Shown: positions 2,072 through 11,342 of the stretch, in pieces
Position numbering within the stretch: position 1 is the stretch's first letter
Layout of the letters: every line of letters begins with the position of its first letter
Assembly: GCA_021804825.1 (NCBI GenBank)
Contig: JAJZGX010000022.1
Span: 1 to 32,956 of the forward strand
DNA from: Pseudomonadota bacterium
Lineage (GTDB): Bacteria > Pseudomonadota > Alphaproteobacteria > Rhizobiales > Beijerinckiaceae
DNA: 32,956 bases
Direction: 5' to 3'
Notes under the pieces: generated by a model
What the model was told of the DNA's origin: nothing
The model's database searches: none
The model's input: only the letters and a program-made list of their open reading frames with translations
Translations under genes and position numbers: made by a program

Positions 2072-2809
2072 ATGTCTGCATTCAGGATGCTTGTCGCAGC
2101 GGCTCTGGTGCTGCTTGCAAGCCAGCCCGCCGGTGCCGTTGTCGGCCCGACGATTCGTGATCCCGGCCTCGGCCCGCATGTCATCATGGTGCTGATGCGC
2201 CAGGGCAGTGCTGCGGGGTTTTGCAGTGGCGTGGTGGTTGCGCGCAACGCGGTGCTGACCGCCGCCCATTGCGTCACGAAGCCCGACAAGATGAAGCTGT
2301 TCTACCGCGACCATGGCCGTCCCGTGATGCTTGATGTGGCGCGCGTCGCGGTCAACCCCGGCTATCGCGCCGATGCCCAGCAAAAGCGCACCCGCACGGT
2401 CGATCTGGCGCTGGTCGAGAGCGCCACGCCGCTGCCCGACAGCTTCCGGCCCGCAAGGTTCAGCACAAGGGCATCAGCCCGGCTGCACGAGCCATTCCTC
2501 ATCGCCGGATATGGCATGGGCCGCGAGCACGATCCGGCCTCGACAGGCGTGTTGCGCGTCGCCACAATCGAGACCCGCGCGCCCCTGTCACACATCCTCA
2601 TCTGGGCCGAAGACCCCGGCCATGATGGTGCCGGGGCCTGCGAGGGCGATTCTGGCGCGCCGATTTTCGATCCCGAAACACGCCAAGCCATCGCCATCAC
2701 CGCCTGGGCGGATGGTCATGACCGACACGTCTGCGGCGCCTTCACACAAGGCACGTTCATCGCGCCGCAACGCGGCTGGATCAGCCACGTCCTGCAAAGT
2801 TGGCAATGA
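2072..2809 (+). CDS. Secreted trypsin-fold serine protease (S1 family) inside the GTA cluster
   Basis: A 245-residue S1-family protease. Residues 1-22 form a signal peptide (basic start, hydrophobic run, cleavage after AGA), so the enzyme should act in the periplasm or outside. The triad is complete: His66 in TAAHC, Asp111 in VDLAL and Ser194 in GDSGAP. Cys51/Cys67 and Cys190/Cys221 match the conserved disulfides. Six residues before Ser194, where trypsin has Asp189, there is Gly188, so trypsin-like Lys/Arg preference is unlikely. The gene is opposite in strand to the cluster around it, converging on the capsid gene (12 bp between stops) and diverging from the connector gene. The ribosome binding site is weak (gag before ATG). 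A role in particle maturation or release is possible but only inferred from position. Confidence 0.9.
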   Translation: MSAFRMLVAAALVLLASQPAGAVVGPTIRDPGLGPHVIMVLMRQGSAAGFCSGVVVARNAVLTAAHCVTKPDKMKLFYRDHGRPVMLDVARVAVNPGYRADAQQKRTRTVDLALVESATPLPDSFRPARFSTRASARLHEPFLIAGYGMGREHDPASTGVLRVATIETRAPLSHILIWAEDPGHDGAGACEGDSGAPIFDPETRQAIAITAWADGHDRHVCGAFTQGTFIAPQRGWISHVLQSWQ

Positions 2810-2821
2810 GTTCGTCACCCC

Positions 2822-4078
2822 TCACGCCGTGCCGAATTTCAGCAGTTTGATGGCATCGAAATCCTGCACGCCGCCGCCGACCCGCTTGGTCGAATAGAAC
2901 AACACATAGGGCTTGGCAGAATAAGGATCGCGCAGCACACGGATTCCGAGTCGGTCAACGATCAGATAGCCGCGCTCGAAATCACCAAAGGCAATCGACA
3001 GTGAATTGGCGCCAATGTCCTGCATGTCCTCGGCCTCGGTCATAGGAAAATTCATCAGCGTCGTTGCCCCGCCAATGGTGGTCGGTGGTGCCCAGAGATA
3101 TTCGCCCGTGCTGGTCCTGAAGGTGCGCACCTGCGAGAGCGTGCGCCGATTCATGACAAAACGCGCCTTCTGCCTATATCCAGCCTTCAGGGCATAGATC
3201 AGATCGATCACCACATCGGACGGGTTCGCGGCAGGCCAGCCCGCCGAAACGCCGGTGACCTGATAGCCAAGGCTGCCCCAGGCCCAGCTGGTCTGCGCCA
3301 CATTCGGCACGCTCATGAAGCCCTGCGGCTGGTTGACGCCGGTGCCATTGACGAAGGCCGTGCCTTCCTGCGTTGCAAAAGCCAGCGCGATTTCCTCACC
3401 GATCCATTGCTCGATATCGACAACCGAATCGTCGAGCAGGGTTTGGGTCGCCGCGGGCATGGCATAAAGCTCGAAAGCTGGAAAATGCATGTCGGCGATC
3501 TGCTGGGTGGCGCTTTGCGGGCGCGGATCAGCTTCCGCCACCCATCCCGATGCCGGGCCATTGAACGAGAAGGCCTTGCGCAATTGCGCGCCGGAAATCT
3601 GACGCACCGAGGCGATGGTGCGGATTGGCGAATAATTCGCCATGCGCAGCAATATCTCGCGTTCGGCTGGCACCGGCACGAGATAGCCGCCATCCGGGCC
3701 GGAACCAGCCGAAAGCGCCTTCGCCTCGAGCCCCTTCAGGCCCATGGCTTCCCCAGAGCGCATGTAGGAAGTGAAGGCCGCCTTGTGCTCGCGCTCATCG
3801 GTGCTGATGATCTCGCTGCGGCCGATTTGCGGACGGGCTTTTTCGATCAGCATGGTGTCGAGCCGACGCTTGTTGTCGTCGAGCGCCCGGTCAATGCGGG
3901 CCAGCTTTTCCTCGGTGACGACATCGGCGGAAAGTCTGGTCTCGATCTGATCGAGCCGCTCATCGTTGGTGTCGCGGAAGCTGGCGAAGGTGCGGTGAAA
4001 ATCTTCAAAGGCCTGCGTGACATCATTGCCGATGGCTTTGGTCTCGGGTGCTGGTTTGGTGCGTGTTTCAGCGTTCAT
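2822..4078 (-). CDS. HK97-family major capsid protein (g5-like)
   Basis: The protein forms the icosahedral shell. The N-terminal part (about residues 1-118) is charged and helical, with a likely coiled coil at about 38-80, as expected for the delta/scaffold domain removed by the prohead protease. The mature fold begins near AKALSAGSGPDGGYLVP (residues 119-135). Further family marks are GWVAEADPRPQS, DSVVDIEQWIGEEIALAFATQE (two adjoining motifs), GTGVNQPQGFM and a C-terminal VGGGVQDFDAIKLLK. I choose the ATG at 4078 (418 residues) because aaagg lies seven bases upstream. ATGs at 4084 and 4093 are alternatives. The reading frame stays open to 4255 but that part overlaps the protease gene. Confidence 0.92.
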   Translation of the reverse strand: MNAETRTKPAPETKAIGNDVTQAFEDFHRTFASFRDTNDERLDQIETRLSADVVTEEKLARIDRALDDNKRRLDTMLIEKARPQIGRSEIISTDEREHKAAFTSYMRSGEAMGLKGLEAKALSAGSGPDGGYLVPVPAEREILLRMANYSPIRTIASVRQISGAQLRKAFSFNGPASGWVAEADPRPQSATQQIADMHFPAFELYAMPAATQTLLDDSVVDIEQWIGEEIALAFATQEGTAFVNGTGVNQPQGFMSVPNVAQTSWAWGSLGYQVTGVSAGWPAANPSDVVIDLIYALKAGYRQKARFVMNRRTLSQVRTFRTSTGEYLWAPPTTIGGATTLMNFPMTEAEDMQDIGANSLSIAFGDFERGYLIVDRLGIRVLRDPYSAKPYVLFYSTKRVGGGVQDFDAIKLLKFGTA

Positions 4079-4122: not shown

Positions 4123-4695
4123 TCAGCGAAATGCTGCGGCAGCTTTGCGGATGGCGCGCGCCAGGCCTTCGGGCTTGACGGGAAGGTGGGCGCGCTTGAC
4201 GGCGGATACCCGCGCCTGCGGCAACATGGGGAAAGTGACGATCGAGATTTCCCATAAATCGAGCCGGATCAGCTTGCGTATGCCGGTTGACTTGTCAGTG
4301 ACGGCGCTTTGCGTGCGAAACCCGATGGAAAGCCCATCGAGCGCGCCATCGCGCATCAGCGCATGGATCTCGCGGGCGCGGGCCACCGCCAGATTGAGTT
4401 GCCCCTCAACCTTGAGGCCGCGCGCGTCCTCGATGATGGATGTCCAGACGCCGAGCGGCTGCGAAGCATCGTGTTGCCACAACATTTTCACGCCCGCAGC
4501 GCCACGCTTTTCCAGCGATGCGCGAAAGGCCCCCGGCATGACCAGATCGCGCCCCATGTCAACCACGCCGAACAGACTGGCATAGCCGACGAACGAGCCA
4601 TCCTGGGTGAGGCCGGAAATCTGGCCGGGGAGATTTTTGGTTTCCAGCGCCGCGGTGATATGCGCCGTTTCGAGCTTTGGAATCTGTCTCCCCAT
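4123..4695 (-). CDS. HK97 prohead protease (g4-like, peptidase S78 family)
   Basis: This 190-residue serine protease would cleave the capsid delta domain during head maturation. The signatures are FVGYASLFGVVDMGRDLVMPGAF (two adjoining conserved blocks), His75 in MLWQHDASQPLG, Ser123 in LDGLSIGF and Glu149 in LWEISIVTFPM, the positions expected for the catalytic residues of the family. The frame is open upstream to 4902, but the start is set by a near-perfect ribosome binding site, ggaggtgat, just before the ATG at 4695. That ATG overlaps the stop of the 50-residue ORF upstream (TGATG), so the two are translationally coupled. The capsid gene follows after 44 bp. Confidence 0.92.
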   Translation of the reverse strand: MGRQIPKLETAHITAALETKNLPGQISGLTQDGSFVGYASLFGVVDMGRDLVMPGAFRASLEKRGAAGVKMLWQHDASQPLGVWTSIIEDARGLKVEGQLNLAVARAREIHALMRDGALDGLSIGFRTQSAVTDKSTGIRKLIRLDLWEISIVTFPMLPQARVSAVKRAHLPVKPEGLARAIRKAAAAFR

Positions 4696-4847
4696 CAGAT
4701 CACCTCCGGCGTGGCGGCGCGCGGCGCCTTGGCCTTGCTGCGAGGCAGCGGCGTGAGCTTGCCCAACAAAATCAGGAAAGTGGCCAGCACCCGCTCGGCT
4801 TCGGCGCTTGAGGAGCGGCTCTTGCGTTCTCGTCGGCGAAACATCAT
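4695..4847 (-). CDS. Uncharacterised 50-residue GTA-cluster protein, coupled at both ends
   Basis: I do not recognise this small protein. It runs from an ATG that overlaps the stop of the g3.5-position gene (ATGA) to a TGA that overlaps the ATG of the prohead protease gene (TGATG). An ATGATG start is preceded by ttggagatgaacc, a plausible ribosome binding site. The product starts MMFRRRERKSRSS, has a hydrophobic segment VLATFLILLG at about residues 20-29, and a basic, proline/alanine-rich tail. The first part is strongly positive, so a membrane- or DNA-contacting peptide is conceivable, but no function can be assigned. The tight packing on both sides makes it likely to be translated. Confidence 0.6.
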   Translation of the reverse strand: MMFRRRERKSRSSSAEAERVLATFLILLGKLTPLPRSKAKAPRAATPEVI

Positions 4848-5032
4848 GGTTCATCTCCAAATTGGCGGTTGAAGCGGGAAAGTTCACGCACGAACAAGTC
4901 AAACCGGCGGTTGGCGGCGGCCAGTTCGCGCAAGGTGGCGAGCAGCAGACCGGAGGCGCTCGACGCCCAGAGAAACAGCGCCAAATGCGCCAGATCGCCG
5001 CGTGCGATGATGGTTGAGATGACGTCGTTCAT
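4844..5032 (-). CDS. Small GTA protein in the g3.5 position
   Basis: A 62-residue protein occupying the place of the small head-formation gene between portal (g3) and protease (g4) in RcGTA-type clusters. It has a hydrophobic segment, LALFLWASSASGLLLATL (about residues 17-34), followed by a charged amphipathic helix, RELAAANRRFDLFVRELSRF. Its ATG overlaps the portal stop (ATGA at 5029-5032), and its TGA overlaps the next start. The function is not visible from the sequence. The name rests on position, size and a single membrane-like segment. Confidence 0.7.
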   Translation of the reverse strand: MNDVISTIIARGDLAHLALFLWASSASGLLLATLRELAAANRRFDLFVRELSRFNRQFGDEP

Positions 5033-6249
5033 GGCTTGGCCGGGCTGACAGACCCCGTCTGCGGCACCTGCCCGCGTGGCAGGACGCCGTAACCCAGCGC
5101 CTCGCGCTTTTCATCGATGGTCAGGAAGCTCGCCGCATCGACGCGCGCCCATTCGATTTGCCGTTCCTCGGCCAGAGCGTCTATGCGATCAACATTATAG
5201 TCGAAGGTGAAAGGCCCATAGGCCTTGGCAAACCACGCGGCAAAGCTCTTTTGCGTGCGGGCGATCAACGGAATGACCGTCTGACGCCAGAAGGCGCGGT
5301 TGGCTTCCTGATAATTGGAGAAGGTGTTGTCACCCGGTATGCCGAGCATTTGCGGCGGCACGCCAAAGGCCAGCGCTATGTCGCGGGCCGCGCCATCCTT
5401 GGCCGCCATGAAATCCATGTCGCGTGGCGTCATCGACAGGGCCTTCCAATCGAGTCCGCCCTCTAACAGCAGTGGCCGTCCGGCATTGGTGAGGCCCGAG
5501 AAATTGTCGTCGAGTTCCGCCTTGAGCCGGTCGAACTGCTCGTCGCTGAGTTGGCTGCCTTCCGGGCCGGCATAGACCAGCGCACCGGAGGGTCGCGCAG
5601 CATTGTCGAGCAAGGCCTTGTTCCAGCCGCAGGCGGCATTGTGGATGTCGAGCGCCACCTGCGCTGCCGCAATCGGCGAGAAGCCATAATGATCATCGAG
5701 CGGATGAAACAGCTTCAGGTGCAGGATCTGCGCCATGCCCTCGGCATTGACGGGGTAGCGCACCTTGTCGCCGCCGATCATGTAATCATAGGCAACCGGC
5801 CAGCCGGTCGCGCCAGGCACGAGGCTCATGCGGTCAGGGCGCAGCGCGTAGAGTTCGCGCGGCAGGGCTTCGACCAGCGTCGCTTCGACATAGCCATTGC
5901 CAAACAACAGCAGGTTGGTGAACAACGCCTCGAAAAATGTCGGGCCAACATCCGTTGGGTTGGGGCGCGCGAGCAGATCAAGCAGCGGATGTTCGGTGAT
6001 TTCCCTGCGGCCTTCAAACATCAGCCATGGCACCGAAGCGGCCGCTTCGGCGATCATCCGCACCGTGCGATATACCACGGCATTGCGCTCATAGCCCTGC
6101 TGGGTCAGCGTGACATAATTGCGCGGCGTCCAGCGGGCGAGGCCCATGGAGTGCAAAGCCAGCAACCGCGCCGCGCGCGAGACCTTGGTCTCCGGCAAAC
6201 CAGGCAAGGCTCCGCCACCGCCGAAAAGGCGTGAAAAGAAGGACGACAT
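5029..6249 (-). CDS. Phage/GTA portal protein (g3-like, HK97 family)
   Basis: The portal forms the dodecameric ring through which the terminase pumps DNA. The 406-residue product shows family blocks in order: NAVVYRTVRMIAEAAASVPW, HPLLDLLARPNPTD, LLLFGNGYVEATL, HLKLFHPLDDHYGFSPI, and the C-terminal AFGVPPQMLGIPGDNTFSNY with EANRAFWRQTVIPL. The start is the ATG at 6249, giving MSSFFSRLFGGGG, with agggag nine bases upstream. The reading frame stays open to 6336, but that extension reads through an intrinsic terminator hairpin and is unlikely to be coding. It is the first gene after the gap that separates it from terminase. Confidence 0.93.
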   Translation of the reverse strand: MSSFFSRLFGGGGALPGLPETKVSRAARLLALHSMGLARWTPRNYVTLTQQGYERNAVVYRTVRMIAEAAASVPWLMFEGRREITEHPLLDLLARPNPTDVGPTFFEALFTNLLLFGNGYVEATLVEALPRELYALRPDRMSLVPGATGWPVAYDYMIGGDKVRYPVNAEGMAQILHLKLFHPLDDHYGFSPIAAAQVALDIHNAACGWNKALLDNAARPSGALVYAGPEGSQLSDEQFDRLKAELDDNFSGLTNAGRPLLLEGGLDWKALSMTPRDMDFMAAKDGAARDIALAFGVPPQMLGIPGDNTFSNYQEANRAFWRQTVIPLIARTQKSFAAWFAKAYGPFTFDYNVDRIDALAEERQIEWARVDAASFLTIDEKREALGYGVLPRGQVPQTGSVSPAKP

Positions 6250-6638: not shown

Positions 6639-8015
6639 CTACAACCGCCGCATCCTTGGTTCGGCGGCGTCCTTGACCAGCGCCAGGGCGGTGACGGCCC
6701 ACACCAGTGCGTCGAGGCGGTCAGGGCTGTGGCCATCGGCCTTGCCTTCGAGGGTAAAGGCACACATTTCGTCTTCCAGCGCCGGAAAGGCCCCGGCGTG
6801 GCGCACCCTGCCCTGCTCATAAAGCTGCGCCACCGGCGCGGCGCGCAGATATTTGCCGCGGGTTGCCCGCACCGGGCGCACCGGCACGCCGGCATCGGCT
6901 TCGCCAATGACGGCCGCCACCATCTCACCACCCTGGTTGACCTCGGCCACCAGGGCATCGGCCTCGAAGCGGTGATAGAGCGCCACCGCCGCTGCCGCCC
7001 ATTGCGCCGGGCGTGCCTGCGTCAAGGAGGCATCAGCCAGCACAATCACCAGACCGTCCGCGGTCACACCAGCGGCGATGATGCCACAGGCATCGGCACG
7101 TTTGCTGGAACTCGCCGGTGGATCGACCGCGACCACGATTTTGCGACAAGCTGGTGCCACCGCAAGGCGGGCCGCCTCCATCATGTCTCTTGTCCAGAGC
7201 GCGCCCGCGACATCCTCGATCACTTCGCCATCGATCTCCTGACGGCCCAATTTCGTGCCGCCATAGCGGGCAAGCACGGCTTCCAAAAAACCCGGTGCCA
7301 GATGCGCGGCATTGGCGGCGGTGGCGGCACGGGTCACGGCGGTGCGCGGGTCCTGCATCAGGCGTTTGACCAGCGCGGTCGGGCGCGGTGTCGTCGTCAC
7401 CAATTGGCGCGGGAAGCGGCCGAGCCGAAGCCCGAATTGCAGCATGTCCCAGGTTGCCTCAGCCTGCCGCCATTTCGCCAACTCGTCGCACCATGCGGCT
7501 TCAAATTGCGGCCCGCGCAGACTGTCGGGCTGTTCAGCGGAAAACACCTGGGCAATCGTGCCATTTTTCCATGTCAGCAGACGCCGCGAGGGTTCCCACA
7601 AGGGCCGCTCATCGCGCCGGTGCACGGATAGCAGGCCCGAAACGCCCTCGATCATCACATTGCGCACATCTTCATGGGTCTCGCCAATCAGCGCGATCCG
7701 CTGGGGAGCCACCTCGGCGAAGCCCGGCAAGGCCAAAGCCAACCCGCGCACCCATTCGGCGCCGGTGCGGGTTTTGCCAGCGCCGCGACCGCCCATCACC
7801 AGCCAGGTCGTCCAGGGTGCACCGTCTCTGGCCCCCGCAGGCGGCAATTGATCCGCCCGGCCTGACAAGCACCAATCAAACATCAAACATTCAAGTTCAT
7901 GGGCCGAAAGCCCGGCGACCAGCGCCTCGAAGTGGCCGTCGCGCACGGCTGCCAGAAGCATCCGGCGAAATTCCCCATCGATCTGCGGCCACCCCTGCGG
8001 GGCCGGCGCGCTCAC
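6639..8015 (-). CDS. Terminase large subunit (g2-like)
   Basis: The ATP-driven motor and nuclease that packages DNA into the head, about 458 residues. The N-terminal ATPase has Walker A GGRGAGKT (residues 75-82) and a Walker B-like segment AAWCDELAKW. The coupling region LVTTTPRP follows. The C-terminal nuclease begins at KIVVAVDPPASS, whose Asp is the expected first metal ligand, and the late GHSPDRLDALVWAV segment supplies the last acidic residue. I choose GTG at 8015, which overlaps the TGA of the upstream small gene (GTGA). A TTG at 8042 is the upstream alternative. GTA terminases package host DNA by headful with little sequence specificity; that is known for the family and not visible here. 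Confidence 0.93.
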   Translation of the reverse strand: MSAPAPQGWPQIDGEFRRMLLAAVRDGHFEALVAGLSAHELECLMFDWCLSGRADQLPPAGARDGAPWTTWLVMGGRGAGKTRTGAEWVRGLALALPGFAEVAPQRIALIGETHEDVRNVMIEGVSGLLSVHRRDERPLWEPSRRLLTWKNGTIAQVFSAEQPDSLRGPQFEAAWCDELAKWRQAEATWDMLQFGLRLGRFPRQLVTTTPRPTALVKRLMQDPRTAVTRAATAANAAHLAPGFLEAVLARYGGTKLGRQEIDGEVIEDVAGALWTRDMMEAARLAVAPACRKIVVAVDPPASSSKRADACGIIAAGVTADGLVIVLADASLTQARPAQWAAAAVALYHRFEADALVAEVNQGGEMVAAVIGEADAGVPVRPVRATRGKYLRAAPVAQLYEQGRVRHAGAFPALEDEMCAFTLEGKADGHSPDRLDALVWAVTALALVKDAAEPRMRRL

Positions 8016-8257
8016 ATCGCCACGTCGGTCGCAACCGGCCAATAGGCGTCATCGACAGGTTTGGGCGACACTCTTTTCGGGCGCGGCTTCACGGCAATGC
8101 CGTCCTCCTCGCGCTCGATCACCTGCAAAACCCGCACCGCCAGCGGCTGCGGTGTCGTGCCCGGTTGCGCGTCTGCGGCATCACCCAGCAGATCAGCCGC
8201 CGCCTCGGCGCCAACAAGCATGATGGCATTGAAATCCTGCGTTGTCTTGATGACCAT
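8012..8257 (-). CDS. Small protein in the g1 (small terminase) position
   Basis: An 81-residue protein immediately upstream of and overlapping the large terminase (GTGA). In RcGTA the gene at this place, g1, encodes the small terminase. This product has one helix-forming stretch, NAIMLVGAEAAADLLGDA, a second, LAVRVLQVIEREED, and a basic proline-rich tail with KPRPKRVSPKP. The ATG at 8257 is preceded by aaagggag, a strong ribosome binding site. The frame remains open to 8344 but has no ribosome binding site there. I could not recognise a helix-turn-helix, so the small-terminase role is a positional inference. Confidence 0.65.
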   Translation of the reverse strand: MVIKTTQDFNAIMLVGAEAAADLLGDAADAQPGTTPQPLAVRVLQVIEREEDGIAVKPRPKRVSPKPVDDAYWPVATDVAM

Positions 8258-8315: not shown

Positions 8316-8382
8316 TCACTAGCCGACCAGCGTGCGGAAGTCAAGGATTATTTTCTTATTTTAGGAATTTTTTCTTAGTTTT
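8316..8382 (-). promoter_or_regulatory. Candidate GTA operon promoter with phased A-tracts
   Basis: On the minus strand TTGACT (8344-8339) is followed after 17 bp by TAGTGA (8321-8316), about 60 bp before the g1-position ATG. The -35 box is good, the -10 box poor, which suits an activator-dependent promoter. Just upstream are four A-tracts on this strand (8351-8354, 8359-8362, 8368-8373, 8379-8382), spaced 8-10 bp centre to centre, a layout that gives intrinsic bending and can act as an UP element. They overlap the last codons of the ycgN-like gene. Confidence 0.5.
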
Positions 8383-8882
8383 CTTCGTGGCGGCATTTTT
8401 GCCAGATGCGGCATGCGACGTGGCCATGTGACAATATGATCAATTAAATCATCAACTTCGATGTCCTCTTCGTGGCCTTGCAATCTGCCGCGCACAGATA
8501 TGCCCGCCTCATGCACGCTGTCCCGCGAGCCGGATTTGAGATAGTGCCACCACATCAGATCACGCCCCTCGGCGACCAGACGATAGGCGCAGGTCGGCGG
8601 CAACCAGCCGATATCGCGCAGCTTGTCCGGCGTCAGGGCGATGCAATCGGGCACGAGGTTTTGGCGTTGAGGATAATTTCGGCACGCACAGGTGTGTCCA
8701 TCCAGCAATTTGCAGCCAATATCGGTGAAATGCACCTTGCCGGTATCTTCATCCTCCAGTTTGACGAGGCAGCAGCGCCCGCAGCCATCGCAAAGCGCTT
8801 CCCATTGCTCCGGAGTCAGAGCCTCCAGTCCGTCGTGCCAGAACTCACCCGTTTTCGCCGCATGGCCGCCATTGATCGTCAC
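8361..8882 (-). CDS. YcgN family cysteine-cluster protein (UPF0260)
   Basis: A 173-residue protein of the YcgN/UPF0260 family. The family's pattern is clear: the N-terminal FW, LTPEQWEALCDGCGRCCL (the CxxCxxCC motif), then GCKLLDGHTCACRNYPQR, and the LPPTCAYRLVAEGRDLMWWH region. The cysteines probably bind a metal or an Fe-S cluster; the biological role of the family is not known. The start is a GTG at 8882 with gagg eight bases upstream. The C-terminal codons fall in an A-rich tract (PPRRKLRKNS) that also forms the upstream part of the GTA promoter candidate. It is divergent from the PBP gene. Confidence 0.88.
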   Translation of the reverse strand: MTINGGHAAKTGEFWHDGLEALTPEQWEALCDGCGRCCLVKLEDEDTGKVHFTDIGCKLLDGHTCACRNYPQRQNLVPDCIALTPDKLRDIGWLPPTCAYRLVAEGRDLMWWHYLKSGSRDSVHEAGISVRGRLQGHEEDIEVDDLIDHIVTWPRRMPHLAKMPPRRKLRKNS

Positions 8883-9071: not shown

Positions 9072-11342
9072 TTGCGTGAATGGCTCGCCCAGTCGCAGCT
9101 GATGCGCCGCCTGTCTCGATTTTTCCTGGCCCTTGATGCTGCCATCACGGCCTGGCTGTTCGAAGGCGGGCGCGATGGCCGCGAAATGCTAGAACAATTC
9201 GTCACCTTCATGGACCGATTCCATGTCTCGGGCTTTCGCAAATTTCTGGTCGAAGTTGCCTGCGAAGGCCTGACGCTCGGCTCGGCAGGTGCGGTCTTTG
9301 CCGTGATCATGGCTGGCCCCGCGTTCCAGATCACCCAGCAGAAATGGCCACGCAAGGAAGACCTCGCCATCACCTTTCTTGATCGTTATGGCCGCGTCGT
9401 CGGCAAGCGCGGCATCCTGCATGATGACAGCGTGCCGTTGAGCCAATATCCCGCCAATCTCATCGATGCCGTGCTTTCCACCGAAGATCGGCGGTTTTAC
9501 CATCATTTCGGCGTTGACATCATCGGCACCCTGCGGGCCGTGACGGTCGATGCCACCGGCAAAAAACATGTGCAGGGCGGTTCGACCCTCACCCAGCAAT
9601 TGGTCAAGAACCTTTTTCTCAATGACCAGCGCACCATAGAGCGCAAGGTCAATGAGGCTTTTATTTCGATCTGGCTGGAGCAACATCTCACCAAGCGCCA
9701 GATCCTGAAAATGTACCTTGATCGCATGTACATGGGCAGTGGCACCTTTGGTGTGCAGGCAGCCGCCAAATTCTATTTCGGCAAATCGGTGCGTGACCTC
9801 ACCTTGAGTGAATGCGCGATGCTGGCGGGCCTGTTCAAGGCCCCGACAAAATTCTCGCCTGATGTGAATTTGTCGGCAGCGCGCGGACGTGCGGCGCGGG
9901 TTCTCGATAATATGGTGGCGGCCGGCTATATTTCCGAAGGTCAGATGCATGCCGCCCGCCTTGCCCCGGCAACGCCGATCGAGCGCCCACAAGTCAGCCC
10001 GCCCGACTGGTATCTCGATTGGGCTTTCAGCGAAGTGCAACACCTCGCCAACGAGGGCAAGTTCGGCAAATCCCGCGTTCTGGTGGTGCGCACCGCGCTG
10101 GATCCAGCGCTGCAAAAGGTCGCTGAATCGTCGATACAAGACCATCTGCGCGTGTCGGGCAAAGCCCTGCATGTGTCGGAAGCTGCCGCAATTTTCCTGA
10201 AACCCGATGGCGCCGTCCGGGCCATGGTCGGCGGGCGCGATTATGGCACCAGCCAGTTCAACCGCGTCACGTCGGCGCTGCGCCAGCCGGGTTCTTCGTT
10301 CAAACCCTATGTCTATCTCACCGCCATCGAAACCGGACGGCTGCATCCAAATACCATCATCGTCGATAGCCCGGTGTGCCTTGGCAATTGGTGCCCGCAT
10401 AATTTCGAAAAGCGTTATCTTGGCCCGGTGCCGGCCTGGAAGGCCCTTGCTGAATCCATCAACACCTGCGCCGTCAAAGTGTCGATCCTGATTGGCGCCG
10501 ACCTCCGGTCAAATACCTGGAATGATGCCAAACTCGGGCGCAAGCGCATCATCGCCATGGCGCACCGGCTCGGGATCACCACGCCGCTTGAAGACACGCC
10601 TTCGTTGCCCATCGGGGCCGATGCCATCAAAATGATTGATGAAGCGACGGCTTATACGACCTTCGCCAATGGCGGGAAGAAAGCACCTCCCTATGCCGTG
10701 ATTGAGGTTCATGACAGTCGCGGCAACCTGATTTACCAACATGATCGTGACGCGCCACCCCCGGTGCAAGTCGTCAGCCCGCAGAACATCGCGCAATTGA
10801 ACTTCATGCTGCAAAAAGTCGTCGAGACCGGCACCGGACGCAAAGCCTTTCTCGGCTTCACCCCGGCGGCAGGCAAGACCGGCACAACCAACAATTACAA
10901 AGACGCGTGGTTCAATGGCTTTACCGGCAATTATGTCGGCCTCGTCTGGTACGGCAATGATAATGATTCACCGATGCGGCAGGTTGTTGGCGGCCTGTTA
11001 TCGGCTTCCACCTGGCATGATGTCATGGTTTACGCGCATCATGGCGTGAAATTGGTGAATTTCCCGGGCGCCGAACCGGTTGCCGCTCAAGGGATTGCAG
11101 CCGCTAATGCTGCCTCAGGCACGGCAACTGACCTCGCCAGTGCCCTCGGCGCGCCCGTGGCACCGCCTCGGCTCTCGAAAGTTTCAGCTAAAGCTCTGAA
11201 AAATCTCAATATTCTTATTGATCAGGTGAAGCCCCGAAGGGCCAGCTGGCTGCGACAGCGGCACATGCGCACGCAGCAGGCCTCGCGCCAGAGCGGTCAT
11301 GCGGGCATCATCATGCCGGGCGGGCGCATCACCATCCAATAG
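9072..11342 (+). CDS. Bifunctional penicillin-binding protein, PBP1A family
   Basis: A 756-residue inner-membrane enzyme that polymerises and cross-links peptidoglycan. A membrane segment lies at about residues 66-85. The glycosyltransferase (GT51) domain has Glu138 in TEDRRFYHHFGVD and the GGSTLTQQLVKNLFL block (169-183). The transpeptidase has Ser408-Ser-Phe-Lys411, Ser462-Ile-Asn464 and Lys602-Thr-Gly-Thr, the three catalytic motifs in correct order. The start is a TTG at 9072, supported by aaggag eight bases upstream; no in-frame ATG is available before the conserved parts. An N-terminal cytoplasmic extension of about 60 residues and a basic C-terminal tail (RRASWLRQRHMR) are present. It is a monocistronic gene divergent from the ycgN-like gene. 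Confidence 0.93.
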   Translation: MREWLAQSQLMRRLSRFFLALDAAITAWLFEGGRDGREMLEQFVTFMDRFHVSGFRKFLVEVACEGLTLGSAGAVFAVIMAGPAFQITQQKWPRKEDLAITFLDRYGRVVGKRGILHDDSVPLSQYPANLIDAVLSTEDRRFYHHFGVDIIGTLRAVTVDATGKKHVQGGSTLTQQLVKNLFLNDQRTIERKVNEAFISIWLEQHLTKRQILKMYLDRMYMGSGTFGVQAAAKFYFGKSVRDLTLSECAMLAGLFKAPTKFSPDVNLSAARGRAARVLDNMVAAGYISEGQMHAARLAPATPIERPQVSPPDWYLDWAFSEVQHLANEGKFGKSRVLVVRTALDPALQKVAESSIQDHLRVSGKALHVSEAAAIFLKPDGAVRAMVGGRDYGTSQFNRVTSALRQPGSSFKPYVYLTAIETGRLHPNTIIVDSPVCLGNWCPHNFEKRYLGPVPAWKALAESINTCAVKVSILIGADLRSNTWNDAKLGRKRIIAMAHRLGITTPLEDTPSLPIGADAIKMIDEATAYTTFANGGKKAPPYAVIEVHDSRGNLIYQHDRDAPPPVQVVSPQNIAQLNFMLQKVVETGTGRKAFLGFTPAAGKTGTTNNYKDAWFNGFTGNYVGLVWYGNDNDSPMRQVVGGLLSASTWHDVMVYAHHGVKLVNFPGAEPVAAQGIAAANAASGTATDLASALGAPVAPPRLSKVSAKALKNLNILIDQVKPRRASWLRQRHMRTQQASRQSGHAGIIMPGGRITIQ

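Follow-up and report, generated by a model that had tools for sequence, protein, structure and literature searches.

The closest described counterparts of the locus analyzed here are prophage morons. In the available part of PMC7067206, a gene that lies antisense to prophage lytic genes and carries its own promoter is described as typical of moron loci. The gene we describe codes for an S1 (chymotrypsin-fold) serine protease. It is likewise a single extra gene in a standard head operon, it lies antisense among structural genes on the strand opposite the lytic genes, and it appears to be unneeded by the particle and useful to the host. It differs from prophage morons in that it resides in a GTA, holds one site across several families, and outlives its element repeatedly. 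Its base composition is also host-like, and its own promoter is putative.

Trypsin-like serine peptidases have been tied to an alphaproteobacterial GTA in Caulobacter, where LypA and LypC belong to a CARD-NLR-like system that controls GTA release (PMC13236601, available part). The LypABC proteins are large and multi-domain, with CARD-like, ATPase or nuclease parts, whereas the protease described here is a single exported domain encoded inside the structural cluster. The Caulobacter GTA (CcGTA) also uses GafZ antitermination, which takes polymerase past terminators in the GTA cluster (PMC11150451, available part). Phage relatives have gene insertions in the g6-g10 part (PMC11409702, available part). 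Our search of the open-access literature returned no description of a protease between g5 and g6. The word "protease" is absent from the main text of PMC9836097, PMC11841831 and PMC6821227, and a g5-g6 protease goes unmentioned in the available parts of PMC13236601, PMC11409702, PMC11150451 and PMC7067206.

An S1 protease gene lies antisense within a GTA head cluster

The window, which is the whole stretch of DNA that we analyzed, is an entire 32,956-bp contig of a draft genome. It contains the RcGTA-type head order g2-g3-g4-g5-g6-g7-g8-g9. All eight genes lie on the minus strand: g2, the large terminase (6639-8042; PF03237/PF17289); g3, the portal (5029-6249; PF04860); g4, the S78 prohead protease (4123-4830, start codon uncertain; PF04586); g5, the major capsid protein (2822-4078; PF05065, E 1.3e-82); g6, the head-tail connector (1320-1895; PF05135, E 2.2e-9); g7, for head completion (994-1323; PF05521); g8, for tail completion (587-1000; PF11367); and g9, the tail tube (142-558; PF06199). 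The starts of g5 and g6 were taken inside longer ORFs. Two markers flank the cluster. One is a YkgJ-type (CxxCxxCC) gene (8361-8882, minus strand; PF03692), which also marks the site in some genomes that have lost the GTA. The other is a penicillin-binding-protein-like ORF (9072-11342, plus strand), which was named by reading the sequence and whose position is conserved in relatives. Because the window is a whole contig, the cluster breaks off after g9, and g10-g15 lie off this contig. A g15-type domain (PF13547) is found at the edge of another contig, C50, so the cluster seems to have been split by the assembly. The contig end just past g9 (positions 1-120) is rich in short repeats.

The protease gene lies between g5 and g6 on the plus strand, antisense to both. 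It is an intact ORF that begins with ATG, spans positions 2072-2809 including the stop codon, and codes for 245 amino acids. By ORF coordinates, it converges on the end of g5 across a 12-bp gap (2810-2821) and diverges from the start of g6 across a 176-bp interval (1896-2071). The product matches the Trypsin profile PF00089 with an E-value of 2.1e-20 and a score of 73.9 bits against a curated cut-off of 20.6; an NCBIfam search returned no match for the window protease. The GC content of the gene is 0.660 (g5, 0.601; g6, 0.634) and its GC3 is 0.756 (g5, 0.728; g6, 0.760). These values are near those of g5 and g6, so the composition is host-like and not foreign. The g4 product is also a serine protease of the same cluster, but it belongs to another family and its gene lies on the operon strand; the antisense protease is present in addition to it. 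The original prediction had described an intact, secreted S1 protease gene antisense in a GTA head cluster, 12 bp from the capsid stop codon and similar in base composition to its surroundings. The ORF, the PF00089 match, the catalytic triad, the leader and the Pfam matches of g5 and g6 agree with this description, as do the gap and the GC3 values.

The protein is predicted to be an exported S1 enzyme

We examined an alignment of 157 S1 proteins that took intact ORFs only. The catalytic residues His66 (codon at 2267-2269), Asp111 (2402-2404) and Ser194 (2651-2653), all encoded on the plus strand, are kept in 157/157 proteins, and all three are unchanged throughout a 20-row alignment too. Four disulfide-type cysteines are retained in 157/157 S1 proteins as well. 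The AlphaFold model of the protease is a chymotrypsin double barrel with a mean pLDDT of 91.8. The 50 structural matches listed have Z-scores of 25-27 and rmsd values of 2.3-2.9 over 198-213 aligned residues. Among the matches listed, the closest solved folds in the PDB are cathepsin G (Z 27.0), granzyme H and chymase, with Z-scores of 26-27 and about 20% identity. By profile, triad and predicted fold, we assign the protein to Peptidase S1 (Trypsin, PF00089), with predicted protease activity.

The N-terminus is hydrophobic and closes with PAGA followed by VVGPT. Sequence, conserved residues and structural alignment predict a signal peptide (2072-2137, plus strand) that is cut after PAGA at residue 22. 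Leader residues P19, A20 and A22 are invariant in the 20-row alignment. Residue 23 of the model, the first past the predicted cut, is the first aligned residue and pairs with residue 16 of chymase and cathepsin G. A free residue-16 amine activates S1 proteases, so signal peptidase cleavage itself would be expected to activate the enzyme. We based this reading of the N-terminus on 24 proteins with hand-chosen cut sites and on the structural register. Automatic calling of starts and signal cuts gave a site in 140/154 loci, some with visibly wrong cuts (e.g. L053 and L056), and was set aside for the N-terminus.

The protease shares its fold, triad and residue-16 N-terminus with S1A peptidases such as chymase, cathepsin G, granzymes and elastase (PF00089), and its four cysteines sit as in two S1 disulfides. 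It differs from these enzymes in its low identity (about 20%) and in having no visible propeptide beyond the signal peptide. It also differs from trypsin in having Gly and Ala in place of Asp189 and Ser190 (chymotrypsin numbering). The Asp189 position, placed with the help of an alignment to Fusarium trypsin, is Gly in 151/157 proteins, Ala in 4 and Ser in 2. None of the 157 carries the Asp of the trypsin-specific (Arg/Lys) subgroup, and with Gly in 151 of them Arg/Lys specificity would not be expected.

These features bear on the idea that the protein matures the GTA particle, which the original prediction had raised as a self-maturation factor. A role in prohead or capsid maturation would suit a gene that adjoins the capsid gene. 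However, its signal peptide and conserved disulfide-type cysteines suggest that the protein is exported, g4 of this cluster already supplies an S78 prohead protease, and some GTAs remain under selection with no antisense protease (see below). We consider this role highly improbable.

The same site is occupied in several Hyphomicrobiales families

We collected 154 distinct S1 loci after removing seven duplicates (L051, L055, L059, L063, L218, L219 and L222), eight short copies of wider loci (L161, L162, L166, L169, L174, L177, L185 and L187) and three paralogues (L193, L195 and L196). These loci are not a random sample, since most were the top S1 hits of a search, and 20 regions were picked from apparently GTA-less genomes, which lowers the share with GTA neighbours. 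GTA genes lie nearby in 114/154 loci, with both g5 and g6 in 98, g5 only in 2 and g6 only in 14. All 212 of the 212 scored GTA neighbours are antisense to the protease. Since the arrangement recurs with both neighbours in 98 of 154 distinct loci, it is not chance, and the protease in the window is not a local insertion.

Individual genomes show the same pattern. A first set of 41 genomes gave an S1 match in 22, including the window's own; two of these matches were weak. Besides the window, 19 loci were mapped from this set, and 16 of them place the protease between g6 and g5. In G001 it lies between g6 and a capsid remnant. In G011 and G015 it has no GTA gene nearby and adjoins the YkgJ and penicillin-binding-protein-like flanking genes. 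In G019, g5 and g6 adjoin with no protease between them. A scan of named genomes covered the best 80 of 410 relatives and found the protease among GTA genes in 66/80 and without them in 14, 8 of which have it beside the flanking markers. These 80 include Bosea, Methylobacterium, Microvirga, Chelatococcus, Methylocapsa, Alsobacter and Lichenibacterium, genera that we take to fit the GTDB family Beijerinckiaceae.

Within the window's family, 309/397 genomes have an S1 match, and 291 of these matches are strong. An evenly drawn sample of the class gave matches in 4/385 genomes at 1e-20, three from the window's family and one from a second family, which we guess to be Xanthobacteraceae in the GTDB sense. 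The second family has an S1 match in 98/119 genomes. A sample of the order gave S1 matches in 38/249 genomes and added families f193 and f221, along with a weaker paralogue in f207. A tandem S1 pair lies between g5 and g6 in 2/3 loci of f193, and an S1 pair lies beside the flanking genes, with no GTA, in 5/5 mapped loci of f221. At least three Hyphomicrobiales families thus carry the protease at the g5-g6 site, and a fourth carries it next to these flanking genes. Elsewhere, in other families, g5 and g6 are uninterrupted, with gaps of 44-494 bp in 10/10 measurable loci (12 loci were examined, 2 of them without g6), as the original prediction had supposed for GTA head genes in general. It had also judged that the insertion was not recent, which is borne out by relatives that carry the protease at the same site. 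The comparison with relatives that it had proposed therefore does not support the alternative that they lack the gene or that its family is scattered at random sites.

Spacing around the gene varies between families. In single-copy loci of the window's family, the convergent gap between the protease and g5 has a median of 6 bp and is at most 30 bp in 35/41 loci, with starts estimated by script. The median start-to-start distance between the protease and g6 is 49 bp (n=77, start codons estimated). In the second family, the protease-g5 gap has an estimated median of 810 bp (n=21) and commonly falls between 0.4 and 3 kb. Some genomes have a second S1 copy, or other DNA, between S1 and g5. Further unrelated ORFs in the g5-S1 interval (L201:8007-9029, L206:5750-6946, L198:5248-9898, L064:10500-11603 and L119:7801-8391) appear by eye to be lytic-transglycosylase-like, a transporter set, another protease-like ORF and Dps-like, and the interval resembles an insertion hot spot. 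The head module is rearranged in L188, L198 and L199, where g2 adjoins the protease and g6; in L198 and L199, the two of these loci with wide flanks, g4-g5 lie about 10 kb from the protease.

Such spacing could reflect a transcriptional switch in which the protein itself is secondary. Read-through from a protease promoter would run antisense into g5-g2, a GTA transcript would run antisense through the protease gene, and the two states would be mutually exclusive. The very close convergent ends in the window's family and the short start-to-start distance to g6 are consistent with this model, as is the bypassing of terminators by GafZ antitermination in CcGTA described above. If it held, transcription of the protease would silence the capsid side and GTA read-through would silence the protease, a cell would either secrete the protease or commit to GTA particles, and lineages that lose the GTA would keep the protease half. 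The long g5 gap of the second family argues against it, however, and the protein sequence and triad are clearly selected also where the GTA is absent. We regard such a switch as improbable.

Descent and origin of the protease gene

We compared the history of the protease with that of its neighbours. On the S1 tree, families f193 and f221 each form one clade, and f1 and f18 take two changes each. The S1 and g5 distance matrices correlate with a Spearman coefficient of 0.57 over 86 loci, a value reached in 0/299 permutations, and the correlation between g5 and g6 distances is lower (0.40). Common descent alone would give a correlation between S1 and g5 distances.

A diverged second S1 copy stands in tandem with the first in L062, L063, L064, L066, L067, L190, L197, L191 and L194; at loci that have g5, it lies toward g5. 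In f1 and f221 the second copies cluster together (support 94), along with two non-GTA paralogues, and the second copies of f193 fall elsewhere on the S1 tree on a long branch. Given the non-GTA paralogues in the group and the separate position of the f193 copies, an ancestral tandem pair is only possible. Diverged S1 paralogues also occur away from any GTA gene, at three loci in f193 and f207 (L195, L196 and L193), and may point to where the inserted gene came from.

We considered a phage origin and rejected it. No homologue of the protease was found in 50,697 phage records at an E-value of 1e-3, and a PHROG search at 1e-3 gave no match. The protease was matched at 31 IMG/VR loci, and in 24 of these (L250-L272 and L276) g6 adjoins it on the opposite strand, as in the GTA. 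Most simply, the 24 loci are GTA clusters binned as viral. The remaining 7/31 match weakly (E 8e-9 or worse) and have no GTA genes. Membership in a defence system was rejected as well. PADLOC matches to the window protein were limited to E-values of 0.0026 and 0.0029; second copies matched LmuA (0.0021 and 9.9e-7, in two copies) and Avs1b (3.9e-5, in one). We took these weak matches to reflect the common trypsin fold.

The protease is retained where the GTA head is gone

We scored the protease and the capsid across whole genomes. A capsid was called present at an E-value cut-off of 1e-60, a match that could also come from a related prophage, and in the window's family we treated 18 genomes whose S1 matches were all weak (2.6e-15 or worse) as S1-less. 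Among the 397 genomes of the window's family, 218 have S1 and capsid, 73 S1 only, 37 capsid only and 69 neither; among the 119 of the second family, the counts are 68, 30, 3 and 18. These counts treat related genomes as separate, and drafts can hide a capsid. The protease is retained in 73/142 capsid-less genomes of the window's family and 30/48 of the second. It is commoner where a capsid is present (218/255 in the window's family and 68/71 in the second, uncorrected for kinship), which leaves room for a functional tie.

We checked the S1-only genomes for the portal gene as well. This check covered 80 of the 103 such genomes (63/73 and 17/30 in the two families), each with a completeness of 90% or more and contamination of 5% or less; 10 more second-family genomes that pass these thresholds lie outside the 80. 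The portal is absent too, at 1e-60, in 74/80 and present in 6/80. The S1-only genomes include single-contig ones such as G011 and G693. A g15-type domain remains elsewhere in the G011 genome. In G001, which belongs to the window's genus (L052), the capsid gene is broken into pieces about 39 kb apart and the protease is intact. An intact-looking portal lies on the far side of this break. The near side has the protease together with g6-g9 and a g15 domain. Given the six genomes with a portal and the g15-type domains in G001 and G011, a capsid-less genome is not always GTA-less.

On the S1 tree, the state of having or lacking a GTA changes at least 15 times; the state was defined by GTA genes within the fetched stretch, so that relocation is counted as loss. 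Among 14 pairs that lack the GTA, the dN/dS of S1 runs from 0.10 to 0.33, and among 15 that bear it from 0.06 to 0.48; some pairs have a member in common. As judged from these ratios, the protease is under purifying selection also in capsid-less genomes. A neutral passenger that has merely not yet been removed could have the host-like composition seen here and no known function, and at least one copy, that of G065, is interrupted by an in-frame stop. Across 29 pairs, both GTA-bearing and GTA-less, dN/dS stays under 0.5, and the triad is intact in 157/157 intact ORFs; these results refute this reading as far as sequence can show, and we give it almost no weight.

A clade keeps the GTA without the protease

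The converse case is concentrated in two sister genera. In the window's family, 35 of the 37 capsid-only genomes belong to g17 (26) and g58 (9), which we guess may be Methylocystis and Methylosinus. The 23 sampled capsids of these genera form one clade (SH-aLRT 99) that is nested among S1 carriers, within a larger clade of 48 rows (99) to which the window belongs too. The g5-g6 gap in these genera is 57-89 bp with no S1 match in 22/22 measurable loci. The dN/dS of g5 is 0.03-0.17 in 8 pairs, and selection of this kind suggests that the GTA is active in the S1-less clade. A single loss of the protease with the GTA kept is the simplest account of g17 and g58. Weak S1 matches in G337 and G317 (both g17) lie on contigs other than those of their capsids. 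One draft genome of g58, G227 (86% complete, 6% contaminated), carries a protease (L285; G227:C286:5160-5858) antisense to the capsid gene and beside it, with match ends 9 bp apart, so the S1-less clade is not uniform. Contamination, misassignment of the genus or a second history may explain this exception.

The two dissociations bear on whether the protease serves the GTA. The protein could act extracytoplasmically as a helper in GTA release or recipient entry, for example by digesting envelope or surface proteins, and the link could have been lost in clades that found another way. Across several families the gene has kept one site inside the GTA, a constancy that could indicate a tie between the two, and it is found more often in genomes with a capsid. 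Its distances correlate with those of g5 more strongly than g5 and g6 correlate with each other, a pattern for which common descent suffices. GTA lysis in Caulobacter needs the trypsin-like peptidase activity of LypA and LypC (PMC13236601, available part). On the other hand, the protease is encoded on the strand opposite the GTA operon, remains under selection in many lineages whose GTA head genes are missing, and is absent from most of the g17 and g58 genomes that keep a selected GTA. It is also a 245-aa single domain with neither the CARD-like nor the ATPase parts of LypA. We think a helper role unlikely, though somewhat less so than the antisense switch. The release factor suggested in the original prediction is likewise disfavoured by the opposite strand and by these losses and retentions.

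A probable host-serving gene in a domesticated prophage

We favour, with a probability of roughly 0.7, the reading that the protease is an ancient, host-serving, moron-like accessory gene in a domesticated prophage, the GTA. Of the three options in the original prediction, a cargo or unrelated accessory gene fits best, and maturation and release fit poorly. We extend the accessory-gene option to a gene that is ancient, fixed in place and apparently host-serving. A composition unlike that of the element is typical of recent morons and is not required of old ones. The protease does not have such a composition, and we therefore claim that it works like a moron and do not claim membership.

In the model that we propose, an ancestor of several Hyphomicrobiales families would have acquired the gene, possibly already as a tandem pair, at the g5-g6 junction and antisense to both neighbours. 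The gene would since have been mostly inherited in place, as its position, orientation, distribution and family-wise tree suggest. The gene would be expressed from its own promoter, and its product would be exported by Sec, as the signal peptide predicts. A signal peptidase cut after A-x-A would expose an Ile/Val-16-like N-terminus and activate the enzyme, so no propeptide would be needed. The conserved cysteines would form two disulfides outside the cytoplasm. The mature enzyme may then cleave proteins in the periplasm or extracellularly through an uncharged, chymotrypsin/elastase-like pocket. Both dissociations seen in our genome counts suggest that the protease is neither needed for selection of the GTA genes nor dependent on the GTA.

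This host-serving model has consequences for transcription of the locus. Any protease promoter is expected in the interval 1896-2071 or within g6. A consensus promoter scan found none upstream of the protease and one weak match inside the gene (mean in shuffles, 0.5), and the 12-bp protease-g5 gap has no intrinsic-terminator-like match. Fourfold-site divergence, compared as a sign of promoter overlap with g6, is lower over the first 20 codons of g6 in three S1-bearing groups (0.26, 0.23 and 0.14). The second family shows no dip (0.44), and of the S1-less controls g17 shows a dip (0.24) and g58 does not (0.40); the model makes no use of this comparison. The GTA operon would have to cross the antisense protease gene to reach g6, and antitermination of the GafZ type, by inference from Caulobacter, would carry polymerase across here too.

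GTA clusters are usually treated as conserved blocks in which every gene is there for the particle. If the host-serving model is right, a domesticated prophage can be a long-term address for host genes. The genomes with and without the protease also offer a natural set in which to ask what GTA retention depends on. They carry a warning as well: genes inside a GTA cluster need not be GTA genes.
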